This document shows, in pieces, positions 22,245 to 31,492 of a stretch of 64,000 nucleotides of DNA. Source of the stretch: Rufibacter sp. XAAS-G3-1. GTDB taxonomy: Bacteria; Bacteroidota; Bacteroidia; Cytophagales; Hymenobacteraceae. How positions within the stretch are numbered: position 1 is the stretch's first letter; each line of letters starts with the position of its first letter. The stretch covers positions 1 through 64,000 of the forward strand of contig NZ_JABFAM010000009.1 in assembly GCF_013623775.1 (NCBI RefSeq). The letters run 5' to 3'. A program made the position numbers and the translations under genes. Below the pieces are notes generated by a model. That model was not told where the DNA came from. It was given only the letters and a program-made list of their open reading frames with translations, and did not search any database.

Positions 22245-23117
22245 CTAATTAACGGTAAAGCGTTTCTCTTTCCAGAGCACGGCGGCGTCTTCAATTTCCT
22301 GGGCGTACGTCTGGTAGGATTCCATGGTCTTCTTGCCCAACTTTTGCGCTTTCTTGTTTAACTCCAGGGCCTCGGCGTATTCATTTTTCTGGGCCAATAG
22401 TTTTGCCTTCAGCCAGGTATTGTAGAAGTTCTCTTCAATGGTGATGGATTGATTCACCCACTGGAGGGCTTGCTCATGGTCTGAGTTCTGCAGAATGAGG
22501 TAGTTCACCGCCTGCGCATACACCATCCAGTCAGTGGGGGTAGACTTCTGCAAAGATTCTTTGATCAGGTTCATGGTCTGCTTATGCGACTCTACCCTAA
22601 TGGGCACCACCAACTGTTTATTTGCCCAGTTCAAGGTCAGTCTTCCGCCGTTGGCGGTAATATCCTGTATAGTGTATTGCAACGTCTCATGGAAAGAGGA
22701 AGGCTGAGGACTGAAAGGCAATCTGATTTGATCTTGCTTGGGATCATAGCCATCGGTGCCCCAAAGGCCTTTTTGCTTGCTCAGGATAAAAGTCCAGTTG
22801 GTAGAATCAACGGGCAGCACATATAAGGTATAAGTACCGGCTGGAATGTTCTCCTGTGAAATCCGGACATCAGTGCTGAAGGAAATGGTAGTGGCTTCGT
22901 TTGCCCCGGCTCTCCAAACCTGTCCGTAAGGAACCAGTTTTCCGTAAACGGCTCTGTTCTTAACGCCCGGGGCCCCGTAGTTGAGGGTGATGTCGGTGAC
23001 GCCCACCGTATAGGTCAGAATGGCCCGGGGGCTGGCTTGGGGGAGTTTTAGGAGGCTCTGCGTAAAACCAGAGAAGGAGAGGAGTACCAGGAGAAAAGAA
23101 AAAACTACTTTATGCAT
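22245..23117 (-). CDS. DUF2911 domain-containing secreted protein
   Basis: 290 residues with a signal peptide (about 1-19, FLLVLLSFSGFTQS). Residues 20-180 are the DUF2911 domain, with the markers LPQASPRAILTYTVGVTDITLNYGAPGVKNR, LVPYGQVWRAGANEATTI and IPAGTYTLYVLP. The C-terminal third (about 185-285) looks like two or three TPR-like helices (YAEALELNKKAQKLGKK). DUF2911 proteins are frequent in Bacteroidota; no biochemical role is established to my knowledge. The promoter region runs into the his leader region on the other strand. Confidence 0.88.
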   Translation of the reverse strand: MHKVVFSFLLVLLSFSGFTQSLLKLPQASPRAILTYTVGVTDITLNYGAPGVKNRAVYGKLVPYGQVWRAGANEATTISFSTDVRISQENIPAGTYTLYVLPVDSTNWTFILSKQKGLWGTDGYDPKQDQIRLPFSPQPSSFHETLQYTIQDITANGGRLTLNWANKQLVVPIRVESHKQTMNLIKESLQKSTPTDWMVYAQAVNYLILQNSDHEQALQWVNQSITIEENFYNTWLKAKLLAQKNEYAEALELNKKAQKLGKKTMESYQTYAQEIEDAAVLWKEKRFTVN

Positions 23118-23289
23118 ACCTTATTAATCAAACAAGCTCTGAAGGACTTAGAGAAGAAAATCTGTTATGTTAATGCTAGACATAGAAAATACCATGCCAC
23201 CTAAATTGTCTTATTCGTTGTTTCTGTTGTAAAATACAAATTTTACCCTTAAAATTGAAGAAAACAAATCAAAAAGCCCCTGTTTCCTG

Positions 23290-23319
23290 TTTGATATAAA
23301 AGAGAACGTACTACCTTTG
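23290..23319 (+). promoter_or_regulatory. Predicted promoter of the his operon
   Basis: TTTG at 23290-23293, 18 bases, then TACCTTTG at 23312-23319. The expected start of transcription is about 23325-23327, so the leader-peptide ATG at 23329 would be almost at the 5' end of the mRNA. Confidence 0.6.
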
Positions 23320-23328
23320 GCCTACATT

Positions 23329-23418
23329 ATGAGCAGCACCTACAAAAATATTTCCCTTTCTGCCACCGCAACCGCGGCGCACGGGGTGCATTGTGCTCAT
23401 TTCCATCATTCCTCTTAG
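23329..23418 (+). CDS. hisL: His operon leader peptide (29 residues)
   Basis: ATG at 23329, TAG at 23416-23418. The peptide ends AAHGVHCAHFHHSS: five histidines among the last twelve residues, with CAC/CAT codons at 23380-23412. This is the composition of an attenuator leader peptide: a ribosome short of His-tRNA stalls here and changes the folding of the RNA before hisG. It is too short to appear in ordinary gene calls. Position 18 codons downstream of a near-leaderless start and 128 bases before hisG supports the call. Confidence 0.85.
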   Translation: MSSTYKNISLSATATAAHGVHCAHFHHSS

Positions 23419-23500
23419 GAGGAATAACTACACCATATCGTCCATTCTGGGGCTGGGCTCCATTTAACCTGCCGCTTTTCTAAGAGAATACGCGAGCAGG
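23408..23500 (+). promoter_or_regulatory. Attenuator region of the his operon
   Basis: ATTCCTC and GAGGAAT (23408-23425) form a hairpin whose loop contains the leader stop codon. A second hairpin has arms CCTGC (23468-23472) and GCAGG (23496-23500) and is followed by a T-rich stretch. Bases ATTCCTCTTAG (23408-23418) can instead pair with CTAAGAGAAT (23480-23489) inside the second hairpin, giving mutually exclusive structures. Which one is the terminator is inference. A TATCTTTG at 23504-23511 might be an internal -7 box. Confidence 0.6.
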
Positions 23501-23546
23501 AACTATCTTTGTTTTCATTCATGCTATCTAAAGCACCACAAAAACT

Positions 23547-24398
23547 ATGATCCGGTTAGCCATTCAGAAATCCGGGCGCCTTTCTGAGGACTCTTTGAAA
23601 CTTATCCGCGAGTGCGGCATTTCCTTTATCAGTACCACTTCCAAACTCAAGACGGAAGCCACCAATTTTCCCCTGGAGATTCTTTTCCTGCGCGACGATG
23701 ACATTCCCGGCTACGTAGCCGATGGCGTGGCCGATATCGGGATTGTGGGCCAGAACGTGCTGGTGGAGGAAGGCCTGCAAGACTTAACCGTAAAAAATCT
23801 GGGCTTCAGTAAATGCCGCTTGTCTTTGGCGGTCTCCAAAGGCGACGAGTATAAGGATGTCACCACGCTGTCCGGCAAAAGCATTGCTACGTCTTACCCC
23901 AACCTGTTGCAGGAATTCCTGACTTCCAAAGGAGTAGAAGCCGATATCCATACCATCAGCGGTTCGGTGGAGATTGCGCCCAGCATTGGCTTAGCCGATG
24001 CGGTGTGTGACATTGTTTCATCCGGTTCCACGCTCATCAGCAACGGACTTAGAGAAGTTGAGACCGTCTTCAAATCTGAGGCGGTTCTAATCGCAAACCA
24101 AAGCCTAAACCAGGAGAAAAGCCGCCTGCTTCAGCAGCTGCTGTTTAGAATGGAGGCCGTGCAGAAAGCCCAAAAGTCTAAGTACGTAGTGCTGAACGCG
24201 CCCAACTCGGCCATCCCCGAAATCAAGAACCTGCTCCCGGGCATTAAGTCTCCTACCATCATACCGTTGGCCGAAGAAGGGTGGAGCTCGTTGCACTCGG
24301 TGGTGAACGAAGACGATTTCTGGGACATCATCCAGAAACTGAAAGAAGCCGGGGCCGAAGGTATTCTGGTGGTTCCTATTGAAAAGATGATTGGGTAA
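23547..24398 (+). CDS. hisG: ATP phosphoribosyltransferase, long form
   Basis: 283 residues. First step of histidine synthesis: ATP + PRPP to phosphoribosyl-ATP. Periplasmic-binding-protein-like catalytic domains cover about 1-210 (MIRLAIQKSGRLSEDSLKL, GIVGQNVLVEE, and the PRPP loop DAVCDIVSSGSTLISNGL). Residues 212-283 form the ACT-like regulatory domain (GIKSPTIIPLAEEGWSSLHSVVNEDDFW), marking the long HisG type that is feedback-inhibited by histidine and needs no HisZ. First structural gene behind the leader; one base separates its stop from the hisD start. Confidence 0.96.
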   Translation: MIRLAIQKSGRLSEDSLKLIRECGISFISTTSKLKTEATNFPLEILFLRDDDIPGYVADGVADIGIVGQNVLVEEGLQDLTVKNLGFSKCRLSLAVSKGDEYKDVTTLSGKSIATSYPNLLQEFLTSKGVEADIHTISGSVEIAPSIGLADAVCDIVSSGSTLISNGLREVETVFKSEAVLIANQSLNQEKSRLLQQLLFRMEAVQKAQKSKYVVLNAPNSAIPEIKNLLPGIKSPTIIPLAEEGWSSLHSVVNEDDFWDIIQKLKEAGAEGILVVPIEKMIG

Positions 24399-24399
24399 G

Positions 24400-25680
24400 A
24401 TGAAAACGTATCTATATCCTTCCCCCACCGAATGGGCGGCCCTCACCCAACGTCCCGTTCAGAAACTGGATCAACTACGGGCAGGCGTGCAGCAGACCTT
24501 TGACCTGGTGCAGCAGAAAGGAGACGCGGCCTTGCTAGAGTTAGCGGCAAAATTTGACAAAGCAACGCTGCAAAACGTGTGGGTGACCGAGGAAGAAGTG
24601 ACGGCCGCCCTGCCGCAAGTAGCTGATGAGTTAAAGGATGCTATTGAAGTAGCTTACAGCAATATAAAGCGTTTCCATGAAGCGCAACGCGAACCGGTAC
24701 AACAGGTAGAAACCATGGCTGGCGTCATTTGCTGGCGGAAATCGGTGGGAATCCAGAAAGTGGGCTTATACATTCCGGGAGGGTCAGCGCCGCTGTTCTC
24801 TACCTTGCTCATGCTGGGAATTCCGGCCCAGATTGCCGGTTGCCAGGAAATTGTACTGGCTACTCCGCCCAGTGCCGATGGTTCTATTAACGCCACCATT
24901 CTGTACACGGCTCACCGTCTGGGCATCAAACGCATCTTGAAGGCCGGGGGCGCACAGGCCATTGCTGCCTTAGCCTTCGGCACGGAAACGGTGCCTGCCG
25001 TTGATAAAATCTTCGGGCCGGGAAACCAGTACGTGACAGCGGCCAAACAAATGGTCACCCAATTGGGAGTAGCCATTGACATGCCCGCCGGGCCGTCTGA
25101 AGTATTGGTCATTGCCGATGATTCTGCCGAGGCCGGTTTTATTGCCGCCGATTTACTTTCCCAAGCCGAACACGGCCCGGATTCCCAGGTTGTTTTCGTC
25201 ACGAATTCTGAAAAACAGCTCCAAAACGTGCAGGCGGCCGTGGCCGAACAAGTAACTCAACTGCCCCGCCAAACGGTGGCAGAACAGGCCCTGAACAACA
25301 GCATTGGCGTGGTGCTAGACACGCTGGACGAGGCATTGGCCTTCTCAAACCTGTACGCGCCAGAGCACTTGATTCTCTCCGTAGCGGCCCCTGAAGCCTT
25401 AGCCGAACAGGTAACCCAGGCGGGTTCCGTGTTCATGGGCCACTTCAGCCCAGAATCGGTAGGCGACTATGCCTCAGGCACCAACCACACCTTGCCCACC
25501 AACGGCTACGCCCGCAATTACAGCGGTGTTTCGCTGGACAGCTTCGTGAAGAAAATCACGTTCCAACAGCTCACCCGCGAAGGCCTGGAACGCATCGGCG
25601 CGGCCGTAGAAATCATGGCGGAAGCCGAAGGATTACACGCGCACAAGAATGCCGTGACGGTTAGGCTTGCTAAAATTTGA
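24400..25680 (+). CDS. hisD: Histidinol dehydrogenase
   Basis: 426 residues from the ATG at 24400, one base after the hisG stop; the in-frame ATG nine bases upstream lies inside hisG. Zinc- and NAD-dependent enzyme for the last two oxidations from histidinol to histidine. Recognisable: VGLYIPGGSAPLFSTLLMLGIPA, KAGGAQAIAALAFGTETVPAVDKIFGPGN, the zinc region LLSQAEHGPDSQ, YAPEHL and GDYASGTNHTLPT. Length is normal. Confidence 0.97.
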   Translation: MKTYLYPSPTEWAALTQRPVQKLDQLRAGVQQTFDLVQQKGDAALLELAAKFDKATLQNVWVTEEEVTAALPQVADELKDAIEVAYSNIKRFHEAQREPVQQVETMAGVICWRKSVGIQKVGLYIPGGSAPLFSTLLMLGIPAQIAGCQEIVLATPPSADGSINATILYTAHRLGIKRILKAGGAQAIAALAFGTETVPAVDKIFGPGNQYVTAAKQMVTQLGVAIDMPAGPSEVLVIADDSAEAGFIAADLLSQAEHGPDSQVVFVTNSEKQLQNVQAAVAEQVTQLPRQTVAEQALNNSIGVVLDTLDEALAFSNLYAPEHLILSVAAPEALAEQVTQAGSVFMGHFSPESVGDYASGTNHTLPTNGYARNYSGVSLDSFVKKITFQQLTREGLERIGAAVEIMAEAEGLHAHKNAVTVRLAKI

Positions 25681-25682
25681 GA

Positions 25683-25710
25683 ATTTGAAGATGTGAAGAT
25701 TTGGAAACAG
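25683..25710 (+). repeat. GAAGATGTGAAGATTTGG-type repeat, left border of the hisD-hisC gap
   Basis: Begins two to three bases after the hisD stop. Complementary units lie at 25909-25944 just before hisC. The same kind of unit follows the hisA stop at 29546-29598. Confidence 0.75.
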
Positions 25711-25741
25711 GTCTTCCCATCATGAATAATAATCAAATACT

Positions 25742-25833
25742 TTGTCATCCTGGAAAGATCTTGGTGGCATACGGCAGTAACGTTTGAATTACAGATTTTC
25801 TAGTACGCCCACAAGATCCTTTCAGGAGGACAA
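25742..25833. repeat. Family M element, inner part
   Basis: Inner arms TTGTCATCCTGGAAAGATCT and AGATCCTTTCAGGAGGACAA, with a partly different interior and in the opposite orientation to the other copies (GTACGCCCACAAGATCC at the right). The outer TAAGTAC ends are not visible. Confidence 0.75.
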
Positions 25834-25908
25834 AAGGGAGGAGAAGTCAGCTATTTTGGGATAGAAGTCAAAATTTGAAAAAACAAATAAAGAATTGGAG
25901 GAGGAACC

Positions 25909-25944
25909 ATCTTCAAATCTCCTCATCTCCAAATCTTCAAATCT
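25909..25944 (-). repeat. Inverted partner of the 25683-25710 repeat
   Basis: CTTCAAATCT units (three imperfect copies), ending six bases before the hisC ATG. Confidence 0.75.
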
Positions 25945-25950
25945 GAAAAA

Positions 25951-27018
25951 ATGTTTTCAATAGATAATTTCATTCGTCCGCACCTGAAGTCACTGAAGCC
26001 GTATTCCTCGGCGCGTGATGAGTTTGAGGGCGAGGCCAGCGTGTACCTGGACGCGAACGAAAATAACCTGGGCAGTCTGGCCGGGGGGGAGAACTATAAC
26101 CGTTACCCAGACCCGTATCAGAAAACCATCAAAGAAAAGCTGGCGGTTCTCAAAGGGGTTAAGCCTGAGCAAATCTTCATTGGCAACGGCTCTGATGAAG
26201 CCATTGACCTACTGGTGCGCCTGGTCTGCGAACCGGGCCGCGACGAGGTGTTGCTGTTACCGCCCACCTACGGCATGTATGAGGTAAGCGCCAACATCCA
26301 CAACATAGGCCTCCAGCGCGTACCGTTAGATGAGCGTTTCCAGCCTGTTTTCGAGAAAATAGCCGAAAAACAGACAGACCGAACCAAAATCTTATTCCTG
26401 TGCTCGCCCAACAACCCCACCGGCAACATTCTGGAACCCGCCACGGTAGAAAAGCTGATTACATCTTTCAACGGATTGGTGGTGGTGGATGAAGCGTACA
26501 TTGACTTTACCGATACGCCCAGCTGGAGCACCCGCTTAGAGGAATTCCCAAATCTGGTGGTGTTGCAGACGCTTTCCAAAGCCTGGGGAATGGCCGGTTT
26601 GCGGCTGGGCATGGCATTCGCCTCCCCAGAAATCATCAGCTTCCTAAACAAGATTAAACCTCCGTACAACATCAACGCCGTCACGCAGGAACTGGTAAGT
26701 GCCGCCTTAGATAAAACCGCCCAGCTCACCGACATGCTGCAAGTTATCATCGCTGAGCGCACCCGGTTAGTGGAGGCTTTTGCCACCCTTCCGCTCCTTG
26801 AGAAAGTGTATCCGTCAGATGCTAACTTTGTGCTGGTGCAGGTGCCCAACGCCAATGAACTGTATGGCTATCTGTTGGAGCGGGGCGTAGTGGTTCGCAA
26901 CCGTTCTACCCAACCCGGCTGTGCCAATTGCCTGCGCATCACCATCGGGACACCGACAGAGAATGACCATTTATTGGAGTCTTTGCAGGCATATGCCGCA
27001 CACGAAAACTTGGCCTAA
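25951..27018 (+). CDS. hisC: Histidinol-phosphate aminotransferase
   Basis: 355 residues. PLP enzyme converting imidazole acetol phosphate to histidinol phosphate. Visible: LDANENNLGS, the PLP phosphate contact GNGSDEAID (79-87), CSPNNPTGN (151-159), VVVDEAYIDF and the Schiff-base lysine K210 in TLSKAWGMAGLRLG, and the C-terminal RITIG arginine. Separated from hisD by 270 bases containing repeats, yet still in operon order. A P-like palindrome (26335-26373) is translated at residues 129-141. Confidence 0.96.
   Translation: MFSIDNFIRPHLKSLKPYSSARDEFEGEASVYLDANENNLGSLAGGENYNRYPDPYQKTIKEKLAVLKGVKPEQIFIGNGSDEAIDLLVRLVCEPGRDEVLLLPPTYGMYEVSANIHNIGLQRVPLDERFQPVFEKIAEKQTDRTKILFLCSPNNPTGNILEPATVEKLITSFNGLVVVDEAYIDFTDTPSWSTRLEEFPNLVVLQTLSKAWGMAGLRLGMAFASPEIISFLNKIKPPYNINAVTQELVSAALDKTAQLTDMLQVIIAERTRLVEAFATLPLLEKVYPSDANFVLVQVPNANELYGYLLERGVVVRNRSTQPGCANCLRITIGTPTENDHLLESLQAYAAHENLA
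26335..26373. repeat. P-like palindrome inside hisC
   Basis: CGTTTCCAGCCTGTTTTC, GAGAAAAT, AGCCGAAAAACAG. Translated FQPVFEKIAEKQ, close to FRPVFRKTGQKR, which is how intergenic P copies read in the same frame. Confidence 0.4.
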
Positions 27019-27021
27019 GTG

Positions 27022-27058
27022 CTTTTTAGGGCTGAATTTTGAAAATCTGCCTGAAAAT
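27022..27058. repeat. Family P palindrome, degenerate
   Basis: CTTTTTAGGGCTGAATTTTG then AATCTGCCTGAAAAT, three bases after the hisC stop. Confidence 0.5.
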
Positions 27059-27146
27059 AGGAATATCAATCCGCAAGCGGATATTTAACCAAAGAGAAAC
27101 TAACCTACTGTCGTGCTACTGGCTGCGCGATACATGCTACAAACAA

Positions 27147-28241
27147 ATGAAAAAAGTTTTATTCATAGACCGTGACGGCACCATTCTGCTGGAACCACCT
27201 ACCGATTATCAGGTAGACAGCTTTGAGAAGTTCTCGTTCTACCCAAAGGTCATCCGGAACCTTTACCGAATCTTTACGGAGCTGGATTATGAGTTTGTGA
27301 TGGTCACCAACCAGGACGGCTTAGGCACCAGTTCTTACCCTGAAGACACGTTCTGGCCCTACCAGGACAAGATGATGGAGATTCTGGAAGGAGAGGGCAT
27401 CCAGTTTGCCGAAGTGTTTATTGACGGCAGCTTTGAGCACCAGAACAGCCCCAACCGTAAACCGCGTCTGGGCATGTTGGGCCAGTACCTCACCGGTGAG
27501 TACGACCTGGCCAATTCCTACGTGATTGGCGACCGCCTTACCGATGTGCAACTGGCCAAAAACCTGGGCGCGAAGAGCATCTTGCTACAGAAGGAAGCCC
27601 ACGAAGCCGCCACCTTCACCCATACCGATTGGGACGAGATTTACCACTTTCTGCGCTTGCCCGCCCGCAAAGCCACCATTCAGCGGAACACGAACGAAAC
27701 CCAAATCAGGGTAGAGATAAACCTGGACGGCGAAGGCAAGTCAGACATGCAGACCGGCTTAGGATTCTTTGACCACATGCTGGATCAATTGGCTCGCCAC
27801 TCCGGCGTAGACATGCGCATTCAGGTGAAAGGCGACCTGCACATTGACGAGCACCATACCATTGAAGACACCGCTTTAGCCTTGGGTGAAGCCTTCGCGC
27901 AAGCCATCGGTGACAAGCGGGGTATCAGCCGGTACGGCTTCCTGTTACCCATGGATGATGCGTTGGTACACGCCGCCATCGACTTTTCCGGAAGACCTTG
28001 GTTGGTCTGGGACGCGAAGTTCAGCCGCGAGAAAATTGGCGACATGCCTACCGAGATGTTCATGCACTTCTTCAAATCATTCTCAGACACGTCTAAGTCA
28101 AACCTCAACATAAAGGCTGAGGGCGAGAACGAGCACCACAAAATCGAGGCTATTTTCAAGGCCGTCGCCAAAGCCATCAAAATGGCGTTGGTGCGCGACG
28201 TGAACAAGATGGAAATTCCCAGTACCAAAGGCATTCTGTAA
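27147..28241 (+). CDS. hisB: Bifunctional histidinol-phosphatase / imidazoleglycerol-phosphate dehydratase
   Basis: 364 residues from the ATG at 27147; the upstream in-frame ATG at 27039 overlaps a P palindrome and adds a non-conserved extension. N-terminal HAD phosphatase domain: DRDGT with the nucleophile Asp8 and Asp10, and a zinc-loop region. C-terminal dehydratase domain from about residue 175 ([19 protein letters not shown]) with the metal-binding histidine clusters [23 protein letters not shown] and NEHHKIEA. It catalyses steps 7 and 9 of the pathway. Overlaps hisH by one base (TAATG). Confidence 0.96.
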
Positions 28242-28822
28242 TGAAAATCGTCATCGTAGATTATAAAGCCGGAAACGTGCAGAGCGTCTTATTTGCCTTA
28301 GAACGATTGGGCGCTCAGGCCACCGTGACGGCAAATGCCGAAGAAATAGAGTCTGCCGATAAGGTGATTTTCCCCGGCGTGGGCGAAGCATCCTCGGCCA
28401 TGCGCGCGTTGAAAGTCAACAACCTAGACCAGCTGTTGCCTACGCTTACGCAGCCTTTTCTGGGCGTATGCCTGGGCATGCAATTGCTGTGCGAGCACTC
28501 AGAGGAAGGCGATACCCAGATGCTGGGCATTATTCCGGTCAAGGTAAAGAAGTTTGAGGCCGCCATCAAAGTGCCCCACATGGGCTGGAACAATCTGCAC
28601 CACCTAAAAAGTAATTTATTCGCTGGTATCAAGGAGGATGAGTTCGCTTACTTCGTGCACAGCTTTTATGCGCCCGTGACCGAACACACCATTGCCCAAA
28701 GCTCTTACCCAGAACCGTTCAGTGCCGCTTTGCAGTACAAAAACTTCTACGCGGTACAGTTTCATACCGAGAAAAGCGGCCCCGCGGGAGCGCACATTCT
28801 CCAGAACTTCTTAAACCTGTAA
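28241..28822 (+). CDS. hisH: Imidazole glycerol phosphate synthase, glutaminase subunit
   Basis: 193 residues. Class I glutamine amidotransferase giving ammonia to HisF. Nucleophile Cys77 in GVCLGMQLL; the His/Glu pair is in VQFHTEKSG, where the usual FHPEKS proline is Thr. The oxyanion-strand residues around PGVGEASSAM are as expected. Translationally coupled to hisB; five bases before hisA. Confidence 0.96.
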   Translation: MKIVIVDYKAGNVQSVLFALERLGAQATVTANAEEIESADKVIFPGVGEASSAMRALKVNNLDQLLPTLTQPFLGVCLGMQLLCEHSEEGDTQMLGIIPVKVKKFEAAIKVPHMGWNNLHHLKSNLFAGIKEDEFAYFVHSFYAPVTEHTIAQSSYPEPFSAALQYKNFYAVQFHTEKSGPAGAHILQNFLNL

Positions 28823-28827
28823 GCCAT

Positions 28828-29547
28828 ATGGACATTATTCCGGCTATTGACCTTATCGGCGGCCAATGCGTGCGCCTCACCGAGGGCGATTTCGCGCAGC
28901 AGACCACGTACCACTCAGACCCCGTTGAAGTTGCCAAACAGTTTGAAGGCCTGGGGCTGCGCCGATTGCACCTGGTGGATTTAGACGGTGCCCGCGCCAA
29001 ACAGCCTGTGAACCTGCCGGTGCTGGAGCGCATCGCCCGCCAGACCAACCTTTACATTGACTACGGCGGAGGCCTGCAAAGTTCCGACGCCGTTCGGCAG
29101 GCGTTTGACGCCGGGGCGCAGCAAATCACCGCCGGCAGCATCGCGGTACGCGAACCCCAAACCGTAGAAGCCTGGCTGCAGGAGTACGGCGCCGACCGCA
29201 TCATTGTAGGCGCCGATTTCAAGGACAACCGTATTGCCATTAATGCCTGGGCGGAGCAGAGCGAAGTAACGCTGGAGTCGTTTCTGGCCTCTTTTTCAGA
29301 AAAGGGCGGCAAAACGTTCATCTGCACCGATGTCAGCAAAGACGGCAAACTGCAAGGTTCTTCCATTGAAGTGTACCAACGTTTGTTGGCGCAGTTTCCC
29401 ACGTTGCAGTTCATCGCCAGCGGCGGGGTCACCACTATTGCCGAAGTCCGCCAACTCCGCGAAGCGGGCCTCCACGGAGCCATCATCGGCAAAGCCATCT
29501 ATGAAGGCACCATCTCGCTGGAAGAACTGGCCAGGGAGGTGATGTAG
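28828..29547 (+). CDS. hisA: ProFAR isomerase
   Basis: 239 residues. TIM-barrel Amadori isomerase: ProFAR to PRFAR. Catalytic Asp8 in IPAIDLIGG, two phosphate sites DYGGGLQS and ASGGVTT, and the CTDVSKDGKLQG segment. Length normal. A P-like palindrome at 29279-29316 is translated FLASFSEKGGKT (152-163). Its stop is immediately followed by the repeat-filled 446-base gap before hisF. Confidence 0.96.
   Translation: MDIIPAIDLIGGQCVRLTEGDFAQQTTYHSDPVEVAKQFEGLGLRRLHLVDLDGARAKQPVNLPVLERIARQTNLYIDYGGGLQSSDAVRQAFDAGAQQITAGSIAVREPQTVEAWLQEYGADRIIVGADFKDNRIAINAWAEQSEVTLESFLASFSEKGGKTFICTDVSKDGKLQGSSIEVYQRLLAQFPTLQFIASGGVTTIAEVRQLREAGLHGAIIGKAIYEGTISLEELAREVM
29279..29316. repeat. P-like palindrome inside hisA
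   Basis: CGTTTCTGGCCTC, TTTTTCAGAAAAG, GGCGGCAAAACG. Same frame relative to the palindrome as in hisC and the SPOR gene. Confidence 0.4.
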
Positions 29548-29598
29548 ATGTGAAGATTGGTGGATTTGGAAATGTGAAGATTTGGGAATGTGAAGATT
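29546..29598 (+). repeat. GTGAAGATTTGG-type repeats after hisA
   Basis: Three imperfect units starting at the hisA stop codon. Confidence 0.7.
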
Positions 29599-29620
29599 GC
29601 TTATTGAATTCTAATAGCGG

Positions 29621-29690
29621 TCACTGGCGCGAGACTGAAGTCTCGTGACTAATGATGAAGCGAGTCTCCAGACTCGCCGGGAACCACGAA
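29621..29690 (-). repeat. Family G element, partial copy (hairpins 1 and 2)
   Basis: In reverse orientation: GGCGCGAGACTGAAGTCTCG, then GAAGCGAGTCTCCAGACTCGC and CGGGAACCA. The third and fourth hairpins are missing. Confidence 0.8.
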
Positions 29691-29725
29691 CCGAATCAGA
29701 AGAAACCAGGAGTCTGAAGACTCCA

Positions 29726-29769
29726 CCCCTCCCAAGTCACGAGTCTGGAGACTCGTGACTTGGGAGGGG
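29726..29769. repeat. Perfect 44-bp palindrome
   Basis: Arms of 21 bases, left arm CCCCTCCCAAGTCACGAGTCT and its exact complement, separated by GG. The core GAGTCTGGAGACTC resembles hairpin 1 of family G. (First 20 bases of the arm are at 29726-29745.). Confidence 0.85.
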
Positions 29770-29790
29770 AAGGTTGAAACAAGAAGAACG

Positions 29791-29827
29791 CGTTTTTAGG
29801 TTGCTTTTAGGAAATAAGCTTAAAACG
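29791..29827. repeat. Family P palindrome
   Basis: CGTTTTTAGGTTGCTTTTAG then AATAAGCTTAAAACG. Confidence 0.6.
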
Positions 29828-29839
29828 TGCTTAAGGAAG

Positions 29840-29866
29840 TCTCGGAAGTAAATCCGCGCCACAGCA
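29840..29866. repeat. Half copy of the 34707-34782 palindrome
   Basis: CGGAAGTAAATCCGCGCCA is shared with the right arm at 34754-34782. Confidence 0.7.
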
Positions 29867-29952
29867 GGAAACAAGTAAAAGGAGTTTTTGAGCTACTTTT
29901 GTGAAAACAGCCCAAAAACGCATAAAAGAACTAATTAGAAAAGCCTGAAAAG

Positions 29953-29973
29953 TCCCTCTCCGCGGGAGAGGGA
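29953..29973. repeat. TCCCTCTCCGCGGGAGAGGG palindrome
   Basis: Self-complementary, followed by ATTTAGGGTGAGG; a related copy lies at 51817-51837. It sits just 20 bases before the hisF ATG. Confidence 0.7.
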
Positions 29974-29993
29974 TTTAGGGTGAGGTACATTAT

Positions 29994-30746
29994 ATGCTCA
30001 CAAAACGAATTATACCTTGCCTGGATATCAAGAACGGCCGTACCGTGAAGGGCGTGCGGTTTGAGGATATACGGGATGCGGGCGACCCGGTGGAACTGGC
30101 GGCCTTGTACGCCAAACAGGGAGCCGATGAATTGGTGTTTCTGGACATCACCGCTACCAATGAGAAACGCAAAACCCTGCGCGAACTGGTGCGCGAGATA
30201 GCCCGTTACATTGACATTCCGTTCACCGTGGGCGGCGGCATCAGTGCCGTGGAAGACGTGGAGGTGTTGTTGCAGAACGGGGCCGATAAGGTTTCGGTGA
30301 ATTCCTCGGCCATTCACCGGCCCGAGCTGATTACGGAATTGGCGAGCCGGTTCGGGAGCCAGTGCGTGACGGTGGCCATTGATACTAAGCACACGCCGGG
30401 GGGCTGGAAAGTGTTCAGCAAAGCGGGTACGGTAGATACCGGATTGGGGGCGATGGATTGGGCCAAAGAAGTGGTAGAGCGCGGCGCGGGCGAAATCCTG
30501 CTCACGTCCATGAGCAACGACGGTACCAAGGGCGGCTTCGCGCTGGATATTACTGGTGACATTTCCCGCCAGGTGATTGTGCCGGTAATTGCATCGGGCG
30601 GCGCGGGCAACCAGCAGCATTTTCTGGATGTCTTCGAGGCCGGGGCAGATGCGGCGTTGGCGGCCAGTATCTTCCACTTTCAGGAAGTGGCCATTCCAGA
30701 ATTGAAACGGTTCTTAGCCGAAAATAAGATAGACATCCGTAAGTGA
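29994..30746 (+). CDS. hisF: Imidazole glycerol phosphate synthase, cyclase subunit
   Basis: 250 residues. TIM barrel that uses ammonia from HisH to form IGP and AICAR. Catalytic Asp11 in PCLDIKNGR and the second Asp in [10 protein letters not shown]; phosphate-binding FTVGGGIS and IASGGAGN motifs present. The start ATG is preceded by a repeat palindrome, so its ribosome access may depend on local structure. The stop codon overlaps the low-complexity repeat of the hisF-hisIE gap. Confidence 0.97.
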
Positions 30747-30764
30747 GACACAAGACACAAGATG
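30745..30764 (+). repeat. ACACAAGACACAAGATG repeat, left border of the hisF-hisIE gap
   Basis: Begins inside the hisF stop codon; the inverted partner is at 30804-30830. Confidence 0.8.
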
Positions 30765-30803
30765 AAAGGCGCAAGACTTTTTAGATAAATTAGGTTATCT
30801 TAT

Positions 30804-30830
30804 GTCTTACATCTTACATCTTGTGTCTCA
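30804..30830 (-). repeat. Inverted partner of the 30745-30764 repeat
   Basis: CTTACATCTTACATCTTGTG and TCTCA, ending 12 bases before the hisIE ATG. The whole 95-base gap can fold into one long hairpin. Confidence 0.8.
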
Positions 30831-30841
30831 GAATAATAGAC

Positions 30842-31492
30842 ATGACCATAGATTTCAACAAAGGAGAGGGGCTGGTGCCCGCCATCATCCAGAATGCCAT
30901 TACCGGAAAGGTTTTGATGCTGGGGTACATGAACCAGGAGGCGTTTGAGCAGACCCAGCAAACGGGCTTGGTTACCTTTTTCTCGCGCTCTAAAAACCGG
31001 CTCTGGACAAAAGGCGAAACCTCGGGCAATACCTTGAAGGTGGTAAAAACAGAACTGGATTGCGACCAAGACACGCTTTTATTCTTGGTGAACCCCACCG
31101 GCCCGGCCTGTCACCGCAACACCGAAACCTGCTTTGACACCGAAGGCGACAGCGCTTCGTATCACCTAAGTAGTTTCCAGAACTTCACGCCCACAGAACA
31201 AGCCCTGCAATTCATCGCGCAGCTGGAGCAGACCATCAAAGACCGTCGGCAAAACCCCATGGAAGGCTCTTACACCAATTTCCTCTTCGACAAAGGCCTG
31301 AATAAAATGGCCCAGAAAGTGGGGGAAGAAGCGGTGGAGGTGGTCATTGACGCCGTAGCCGGCAAAACCGATACCATGAAAGGTGAGGCGGCTGACTTGA
31401 TTTTCCACTTACTGGTGCTCCTGGAGGCATCTGGGCTTTCTCTGGCGGAAGTTGTGCAGGTGCTGGAGAGTAGGCATAAGCCCAGGGAGTAG
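30842..31492 (+). CDS. hisI: Bifunctional phosphoribosyl-AMP cyclohydrolase / phosphoribosyl-ATP pyrophosphatase
   Basis: 216 residues from the ATG at 30842 (an upstream ATG at 30821 lies in the repeat). HisI half about 1-115: LMLGYMNQEAFEQT, WTKGETSGN, the zinc/magnesium-binding DCDQDT and CHRNTETCF. HisE half about 120-216: all-alpha NTP-pyrophosphatase with KVGEEAVEVVIDA and EAADLIFHLLVLLE. Steps 2 and 3 of the pathway. Last gene of the operon; a strong P palindrome follows. Confidence 0.96.
   Translation: MTIDFNKGEGLVPAIIQNAITGKVLMLGYMNQEAFEQTQQTGLVTFFSRSKNRLWTKGETSGNTLKVVKTELDCDQDTLLFLVNPTGPACHRNTETCFDTEGDSASYHLSSFQNFTPTEQALQFIAQLEQTIKDRRQNPMEGSYTNFLFDKGLNKMAQKVGEEAVEVVIDAVAGKTDTMKGEAADLIFHLLVLLEASGLSLAEVVQVLESRHKPRE

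Follow-up and report, generated by a model that had tools for sequence, protein, structure and literature searches.

Both Proteobacteria and Firmicutes are known to possess His leaders (PMC9413887). In the his leader of Escherichia coli and Salmonella (Rfam RF00514) a short His-rich peptide is encoded directly 5' of hisG, several hairpins overlap the end of the leader and the position of the ribosome is the likely signal. The Firmicutes attenuators, recognised by comparative genomics, similarly have a leader with a run of His codons upstream of his genes; their published descriptions include terminator and antiterminator hairpins (PMC9413887). For Bacteroidota there are earlier hints of amino-acid leaders (PMC2864571, PMC7366714, PMC9723704). 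The Bacteroid-trp RNA (RF01692; PMC2864571) and the leaders of Flavobacterium psychrophilum (PMC9723704) share with the locus described here the phylum, the general kind of element and TAnnTTTG promoters, but no his leader is described in the available text of either source. A literature search yielded no Bacteroidota his leader among the matches listed; Lopatovskaya 2010, known from a reference list, may cover it. A different kind of precedent is the leader orf34 of Salmonella speF, whose stop codon falls within a hairpin and which works through Rho and RNase G (PMC6386406).

The window, a stretch of 64,000 nucleotides from Rufibacter sp. XAAS-G3-1, carries on its plus strand the genes hisG-D-C-B-H-A-F-IE (23547-31492), all eight proteins of which match NCBIfam models, with hisG (23547-24398) the first gene of the operon. 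Upstream of it, also on the plus strand, lies a frame of 29 codons (23329-23418), translated as MSSTYKNISLSATATAAHGVHCAHFHHSS and ending in TAG. Its His codons are numbers 18, 21, 24, 26 and 27, so that five fall within the last twelve. Among 821 ATG frames of 12-60 amino acids on both strands of the window, this is the only one with at least five His in any 12 codons. A short His-rich ORF thus stands directly 5' of the his operon, as in ribosome-mediated amino-acid leaders, and as the first-pass annotation had recognised from the same five codons. On the other side of the leader lies a divergent gene for a protein of 290 amino acids (22245-23117, minus strand; N-terminus MHKVVFSFLLVLLSFSG) which matches no NCBIfam model.

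The resemblance to the enterobacterial leader is one of arrangement. Sequence and hairpins differ, the window has no canonical terminator with a U tract and its predicted 5' end is only 5 nt long. At gathering score no Rfam family is found in the window, and neither His_leader (RF00514) nor Bacteroid-trp (RF01692) gives a covariance model match there or in a permissive search of 23200-23700, which returned four weak hits, all to other families. The Firmicutes systems, too, differ from the present locus in their terminator and antiterminator hairpins and in phylum (PMC9413887). We nevertheless consider it probable that the region is a histidine-sensing, ribosome-mediated leader of the his operon, nearly leaderless itself and a variant without a canonical terminator.

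Conservation of the peptide was assessed in two sets of loci. The first comprises the best 80 of 541 loci found in a search with hisG, all from Rufibacter, Sabulibacter, Pontibacter, Adhaeribacter, Hymenobacter, Solirubrum and Shiella; the closest named HisG relatives among these 80 are those of Rufibacter sediminis and R. latericius, at 96%. A His-rich frame precedes hisG in every one of the best 80, with 3-9 His in the last 30 codons. Within 450 nt, the frame richest in His was taken as the leader. Since this rule by itself can turn up as many as 3-4 His where no leader exists (L106, L109, L116 and L119), the leader of L068, with 3 His, rests on the match to its relatives. Leaders of the Rufibacter and Pontibacter groups end in HHFHHSS or near variants, while those of Hymenobacter are of three types, ending in HHGHHSSF or near variants, in HHHHHLWEAGLCAGC or in HHHHHL.

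The second set comes from a wider draw, in which 56 of 119 Bacteroidia genomes had a hisG match, and consists of 53 loci from outside the family with readable DNA upstream of hisG. When these were read by eye, 47 were found to have a His leader, for example MKTINSHHHSHHAHNV and MKRTVLHHHHHHYNGQ, and six (L106, L109, L116, L119, L134 and L135) to have none; like those of the first set these loci were selected by hisG similarity, and the counts refer to them and not to all Bacteroidota. The first-pass annotation had named missing His enrichment in relatives as the observation that would tell against its histidine leader, but enrichment is present in both sets and the peptide is conserved. In the sampled loci, control by a His leader looks usual for Bacteroidia his operons, in a textbook form and in a form without a clear terminator. 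Six duplicate Rufibacter-group loci were dropped from the rows compared, as was L117, whose sequence had been taken at the wrong end.

Codon differences were also counted. Pairwise comparison of 13 Rufibacter-group sequences gives 355, 271 and 472 differences at positions 1, 2 and 3, which favours the third. In the last ten codons of 28 sequences of the Pontibacter group synonymous single-base differences prevail, with 508 compared to 300 non-synonymous ones; over the last twenty, aligned from the stop codon in gap-free rows, there is no excess at the third position (2668, 2030 and 2711), with 814 synonymous against 1064 non-synonymous differences.

A TTTG at 23290-23293 and a -7 box, TACCTTTG, at 23312-23319 together form a predicted promoter (23290-23319, plus strand). 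In F. psychrophilum the Bacteroidota -7 box, TAnnTTTG, occupies positions -12 to -5 (PMC9723704), and by this rule transcription is predicted to start at about 23324, 5 nt 5' of the AUG. The earlier suggestion that this promoter leaves the AUG a few bases from the 5' end of the RNA is therefore upheld at the level of prediction. Where several ATGs were possible the one with the shortest predicted 5' end was used, and on that basis the box rule predicts 5' ends of 5-6 nt in all 16 Rufibacter-group loci and of 2-7 nt in 23 of 32 loci from Pontibacter, Adhaeribacter and Shiella, the other nine having no box. The 43 Hymenobacter-like loci divide into 16 with 2-4 nt, 25 with 13-17 nt and two without a box, and the 53 other Bacteroidia into 23 with 0-10 nt, 11 with 12-17 nt, 17 without a box and two without a leader peptide. 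As these distances are inherited within each genus, they represent few independent events. Elsewhere in these regions such a box accompanies 5 of 615 ATGs. Genome-wide, 5' ends shorter than 10 nt make up about 3.7% in B. thetaiotaomicron (PMC7366714), and the leaderless share is 5.5% in F. psychrophilum (PMC9723704). The spacing of the box thus predicts a his leader that is itself nearly leaderless. The peptide peTrpL of Sinorhizobium is leaderless, beginning at or near the 5' end of its RNA. It is a leader peptide as well, but belongs to another amino acid and another phylum (PMC7298713).

The minimum free energy fold of 23325-23546 has -57.8 kcal/mol (z -2.84), a value reached by 1 of 200 shuffles, and holds simultaneously the local hairpin and the CCTGC/GCAGG hairpin that had been pointed out in the first reading. 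Within the leader itself, hairpin 0 (23336-23389, plus strand) pairs GCACC at 23336-23340 with GGTGC at 23385-23389 and so joins leader codons 3-4 to the codon for His21; by eye, with no program score, C-G to U-A changes are seen in it in L004, L141 and L143. Hairpin I (23408-23425, plus strand) consists of ATTCCTC at 23408-23414 and GAGGAAT at 23419-23425, with the stop codon of the leader between the arms. It is near-invariant in alignment A1, where five of its seven main pairs show no variation. Covariation in A1 is almost nil; support for the pairing comes from paired changes in two further loci, AUUCUCC/GGAGAAU in L175 and AUCUCUC/GAGAGAU in L177. Such a stop-codon hairpin occurs in Rufibacter, in Pontibacter and in one of the Hymenobacter types.

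Alignment A1 also reveals a conserved motif, AUAUnGnCC (ATATCGTCC at 23435-23443, plus strand), 10 nt 3' of GAGGAA. This distance is kept to the nucleotide in 66 of 71 loci, these being 71 of the 74 that pass the hairpin pattern, and the letters of the spacer vary. In L014, L084 and L086 hairpin I is present and the motif was not found by pattern. The next element, hairpin II (TGGGGC/GCTCCA, 23448-23462, plus strand), has a GGGC that can alternatively pair with GTCC of the motif. Pairing of its G run back to the C run of the motif is possible with at least 3 bp in 70 of 71 loci, a count without shuffle control. A mutually exclusive forward pairing of the same G run has at least 4 bp in 54 of 71, with a shuffle p below 0.1 in 18 of 71, and so lies only moderately above chance.

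Hairpin III (23468-23500, plus strand) is a two-part stem closed by CCTGC at 23468-23472 and GCAGG at 23496-23500, with a z of -3.71 in the window. Its position and rough shape are kept in 16 Rufibacter-group sequences, in which the letters differ; z is below -1.5 in 14 of the 16, the exceptions being L003 and L039, and by eye the outer stems include AGC/GCU, AACC/GGUU, UACC/GGUA and AUCUGA/UCAGAU. Hairpin III is a conserved structure and not a canonical terminator. It is followed at 23504-23511 (plus strand) by TATCTTTG, which can be read as a U-rich tail of the hairpin or as the -7 box of a second promoter. The order of elements in Rufibacter and Pontibacter is thus hairpin I with the stop codon inside, a free spacer, AUAUnGnCC, hairpin II and hairpin III.

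For both the Pontibacter and the Rufibacter group RNAalifold returns hairpin I and one leader stem; in the latter group it adds a long-range pairing, GGGGTGCA : TGGGCCCC, which on inspection by eye was ranked beneath hairpin 0. A model of hairpin I and the motif (R1) matches 20 of 194 genomes of the order, including 10 of 17 in the same family (seven are missed). hisG lies downstream in 18 of the 20, the two weakest matches being those without it. In the genome of the window itself the leader site scores E = 8e-12 and the next best site 0.56.

Terminators were scanned for with a single threshold, a hairpin that has a U-rich tail and an energy of -12 kcal/mol or below, and a stricter class was defined by a compact hairpin with at least six U in eight. 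In the window no canonical terminator with a U tract is found 5' of hisG, the best candidate, at -7.7 kcal/mol, not being a sensible one. The threshold is reached in 2/16 loci of the Rufibacter group, 4/32 of Pontibacter, Adhaeribacter and Shiella, 15/43 Hymenobacter-like loci and 39/53 other Bacteroidia; the compact hairpins with a good U tail number 0, 0, 3 and 27, respectively. Since 21 of the 91 family loci (with Shiella L075 counted in) pass at -12 kcal/mol, the statement that there is no terminator holds for the Rufibacter and Pontibacter groups and less cleanly for Hymenobacter.

The influence of ribosome position on these hairpins was modelled by folding. When the whole terminator was folded at equilibrium in the 39 terminator-bearing relatives, the states hardly differed, since the completed terminator wins in nearly all cases. 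After that result we adopted a nascent-RNA test, in which the RNA is folded up to the 5' arm and loop of the terminator with the stretch under the ribosome masked; since the mask at the stop codon hides more RNA and could itself lower pairing, a shuffle control was added. In the 39 outside loci, capture of the 5' arm by upstream RNA averages 0.68 when the ribosome sits on the first of the clustered His codons and 0.34 when it sits on the stop codon. The mean difference is 0.335 compared with 0.061 in shuffles, and a difference above 0.2 is seen in 31 of 39 loci where 7.6 are expected from shuffles; L123 goes in the opposite direction. By this model the terminator-bearing leader of outside Bacteroidia is a classic attenuator. 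Within the family, three of the 21 loci that reach the threshold, all from Hymenobacter (L065, L070 and L071), show capture of the arm in the stalled state by more than 0.2.

Hairpin III of the 16 Rufibacter-group sequences gave no such response in the same kind of comparison: between the first His codon and the stop codon the mean difference is 0.005, with none of 16 above 0.2, and between the last His codon and the stop codon it is 0.063, with one of 16 (L140). The corresponding Pontibacter hairpin responded in 0/12 loci at the first His codon and in 1/12 at the last, figures from a run that parsed 23 of 48 sequences and took another hairpin in some, such as L039, L140 and L143. The terminator-bearing his leader of Bacteroidia is a fresh example of known attenuation, and the leader of the window is a variant.

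These results bear directly on how such a variant might work. The first-pass annotation had drawn a classic attenuator, with 23408-23418 pairing either locally with 23419-23425 or distally with CTAAGAGAAT (23480-23489, plus strand) and with the CCTGC/GCAGG hairpin as the intrinsic terminator. Its pairing segments (ATTCCTC/GAGGAAT, CTAAGAGAAT and CCTGC/GCAGG) all lie where it placed them, and the distal duplex, at -8.3 kcal/mol, is stronger than the local hairpin at -7.1. The distal pairing stands out from shuffles in the window (p = 0.02), in L002 (p = 0.01) and in L143 (p = 0.01), the last with changed letters. However, it falls below 5% of shuffles in only 3 of 16 Rufibacter-group sequences, or 5 of 16 once the hairpin's 3' arm is included, so that CTAAGAGAAT is not conserved as a partner; the U tail 3' of the hairpin is poor, and the folding test was negative. 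The logic also appears reversed, since stalling at the final His codons would place the ribosome over 23408-23418 and thereby favour hairpin III, the wrong way round for a terminator. We regard an intrinsic-terminator attenuator of this design as unlikely here; the distal pairing may be helpful in a few species and is not part of the conserved core. Of the ribosome-mediated attenuation originally proposed, the conserved His leader and the predicted near-leaderless start are supported; the switch as drawn, flat between the stalled and stop-codon states, is not. A start of hisG from a second promoter, with TATCTTTG as its -7 box, a predicted 5' end of 31 nt and the leader decoupled from the operon, is similarly improbable. 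By eye a TAnnTTTG is present here in 12 of 16 Rufibacter-group and three Adhaeribacter loci, but the box is absent from L004, L141, L146 and L149, neither the window nor L001 shows a TTTG at the corresponding distance of -33, and the letters of TATCTTTG read equally well as a U-rich tail.

Translational control, in which the fold of the leader would hide or expose the start of hisG, is known from other attenuators (PMC9413887), but the predicted openness of hisG from -20 to +12 is equal in all ribosome states (means 0.60-0.61 over 48 loci), and between the first His codon and the stop codon the largest difference at any of the 48 starts is 0.05, none exceeding 0.2; this seems to us very unlikely. 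A much stronger candidate, if one falling a little short of an even chance, is a leader that dispenses with the terminator and acts through Rho, polymerase pausing or RNA decay in the manner of Salmonella speF orf34. That precedent (PMC6386406) shares with the present locus a stop codon within a hairpin, a second hairpin just 3' of it and consecutive codons for the sensed amino acid, but senses arginine, and its dependence on Rho and RNase G was shown in Salmonella. That Rufibacter, Pontibacter and one type of Hymenobacter have the stop-codon hairpin agrees with it, as does the lack of a compact strong terminator in all 16 Rufibacter-group and all 32 Pontibacter, Adhaeribacter and Shiella loci; in the last 60 nt 5' of hisG, moreover, C exceeds G (means 13.2 and 7.5 in 41 sequences, with no control). 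The terminator-like hairpins of some Hymenobacter (15/43 at -12 kcal/mol or stronger, 3/43 compact with a good U tail) argue against it. As to pausing, the hairpin of the E. coli hisL pause ends at -11 (PMC9291695), but in the window the invariant G of the AUAUnGnCC motif comes 15 nt 3' of the hairpin, a misfit of geometry on which pausing of the hisL type was rejected.

For the histidine-sensing, ribosome-mediated leader that we prefer, the following course of events may be envisaged. To judge from the spacing of the box, RNA polymerase would start about 5 nt 5' of the AUG, and a ribosome would load at the 5' end of the RNA and trail the polymerase. With charged His-tRNA scarce, the ribosome would stall on the His codons, prevent hairpins 0 and I from forming by keeping the leader strand unfolded, and leave the motif and hairpins II and III arranged such that transcription reaches hisG. 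With ample histidine it would run on to the stop codon in hairpin I and depart, whereupon the freed leader could fold into a form that lowers hisG expression. Weak intrinsic termination, Rho, pausing and decay are all candidates for this off step. The direction of the response, with stalling leading to expression, is deduced from the pathway together with the textbook relatives.

More tentatively still, we suggest that Rufibacter, Pontibacter, many Hymenobacter and some neighbouring Cytophagales may possess a histidine-sensing leader that has lost its intrinsic terminator, in which the stop-codon hairpin and AUAUnGnCC at 10 nt would relay the position of the ribosome to the polymerase or to a termination factor, with translation starting almost at nucleotide one of the RNA. 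The form without a terminator is a test case for signalling from ribosome to polymerase in a phylum said to have no Shine-Dalgarno sequences.

The same genome provides a second amino-acid leader for comparison. A peptide with tandem Trp codons, MNKTQFSHNAWWHARQN, is encoded on another contig (C71) 5' of a trpE-like gene, so named from a match below the curated cut-off of the model. Its predicted 5' end is 0 nt long and it is followed by a terminator-like hairpin with UGUUUUU, so that, judged by sequence, it looks like a textbook attenuator. The box rule found no leader in this genome 5' of ilvD, leuA, the homoserine dehydrogenase gene or hisS. With short 5' ends predicted both for many his leaders and for this trp leader, near-leaderless initiation in Bacteroidota becomes testable.

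Other arrangements were seen among the his leaders. The second Hymenobacter type, ending in HHHHHLWEAGLCAGC or a near variant and found in L044, L046 and L057 among others, carries directly after its His codons a GUGGGAG for which a distal CUCCAC is a possible partner, a paired change being seen in L046; its stop codon lies inside GGUGCUAGCUUAGCACC. In L130, L131 and L132, which come from one family of Bacteroidia and in which no strong terminator was found, other hairpins such as AUCGCC/GGCGAU enclose or overlap the stop codon of the leader; this is possibly an independent case of the form without a terminator.
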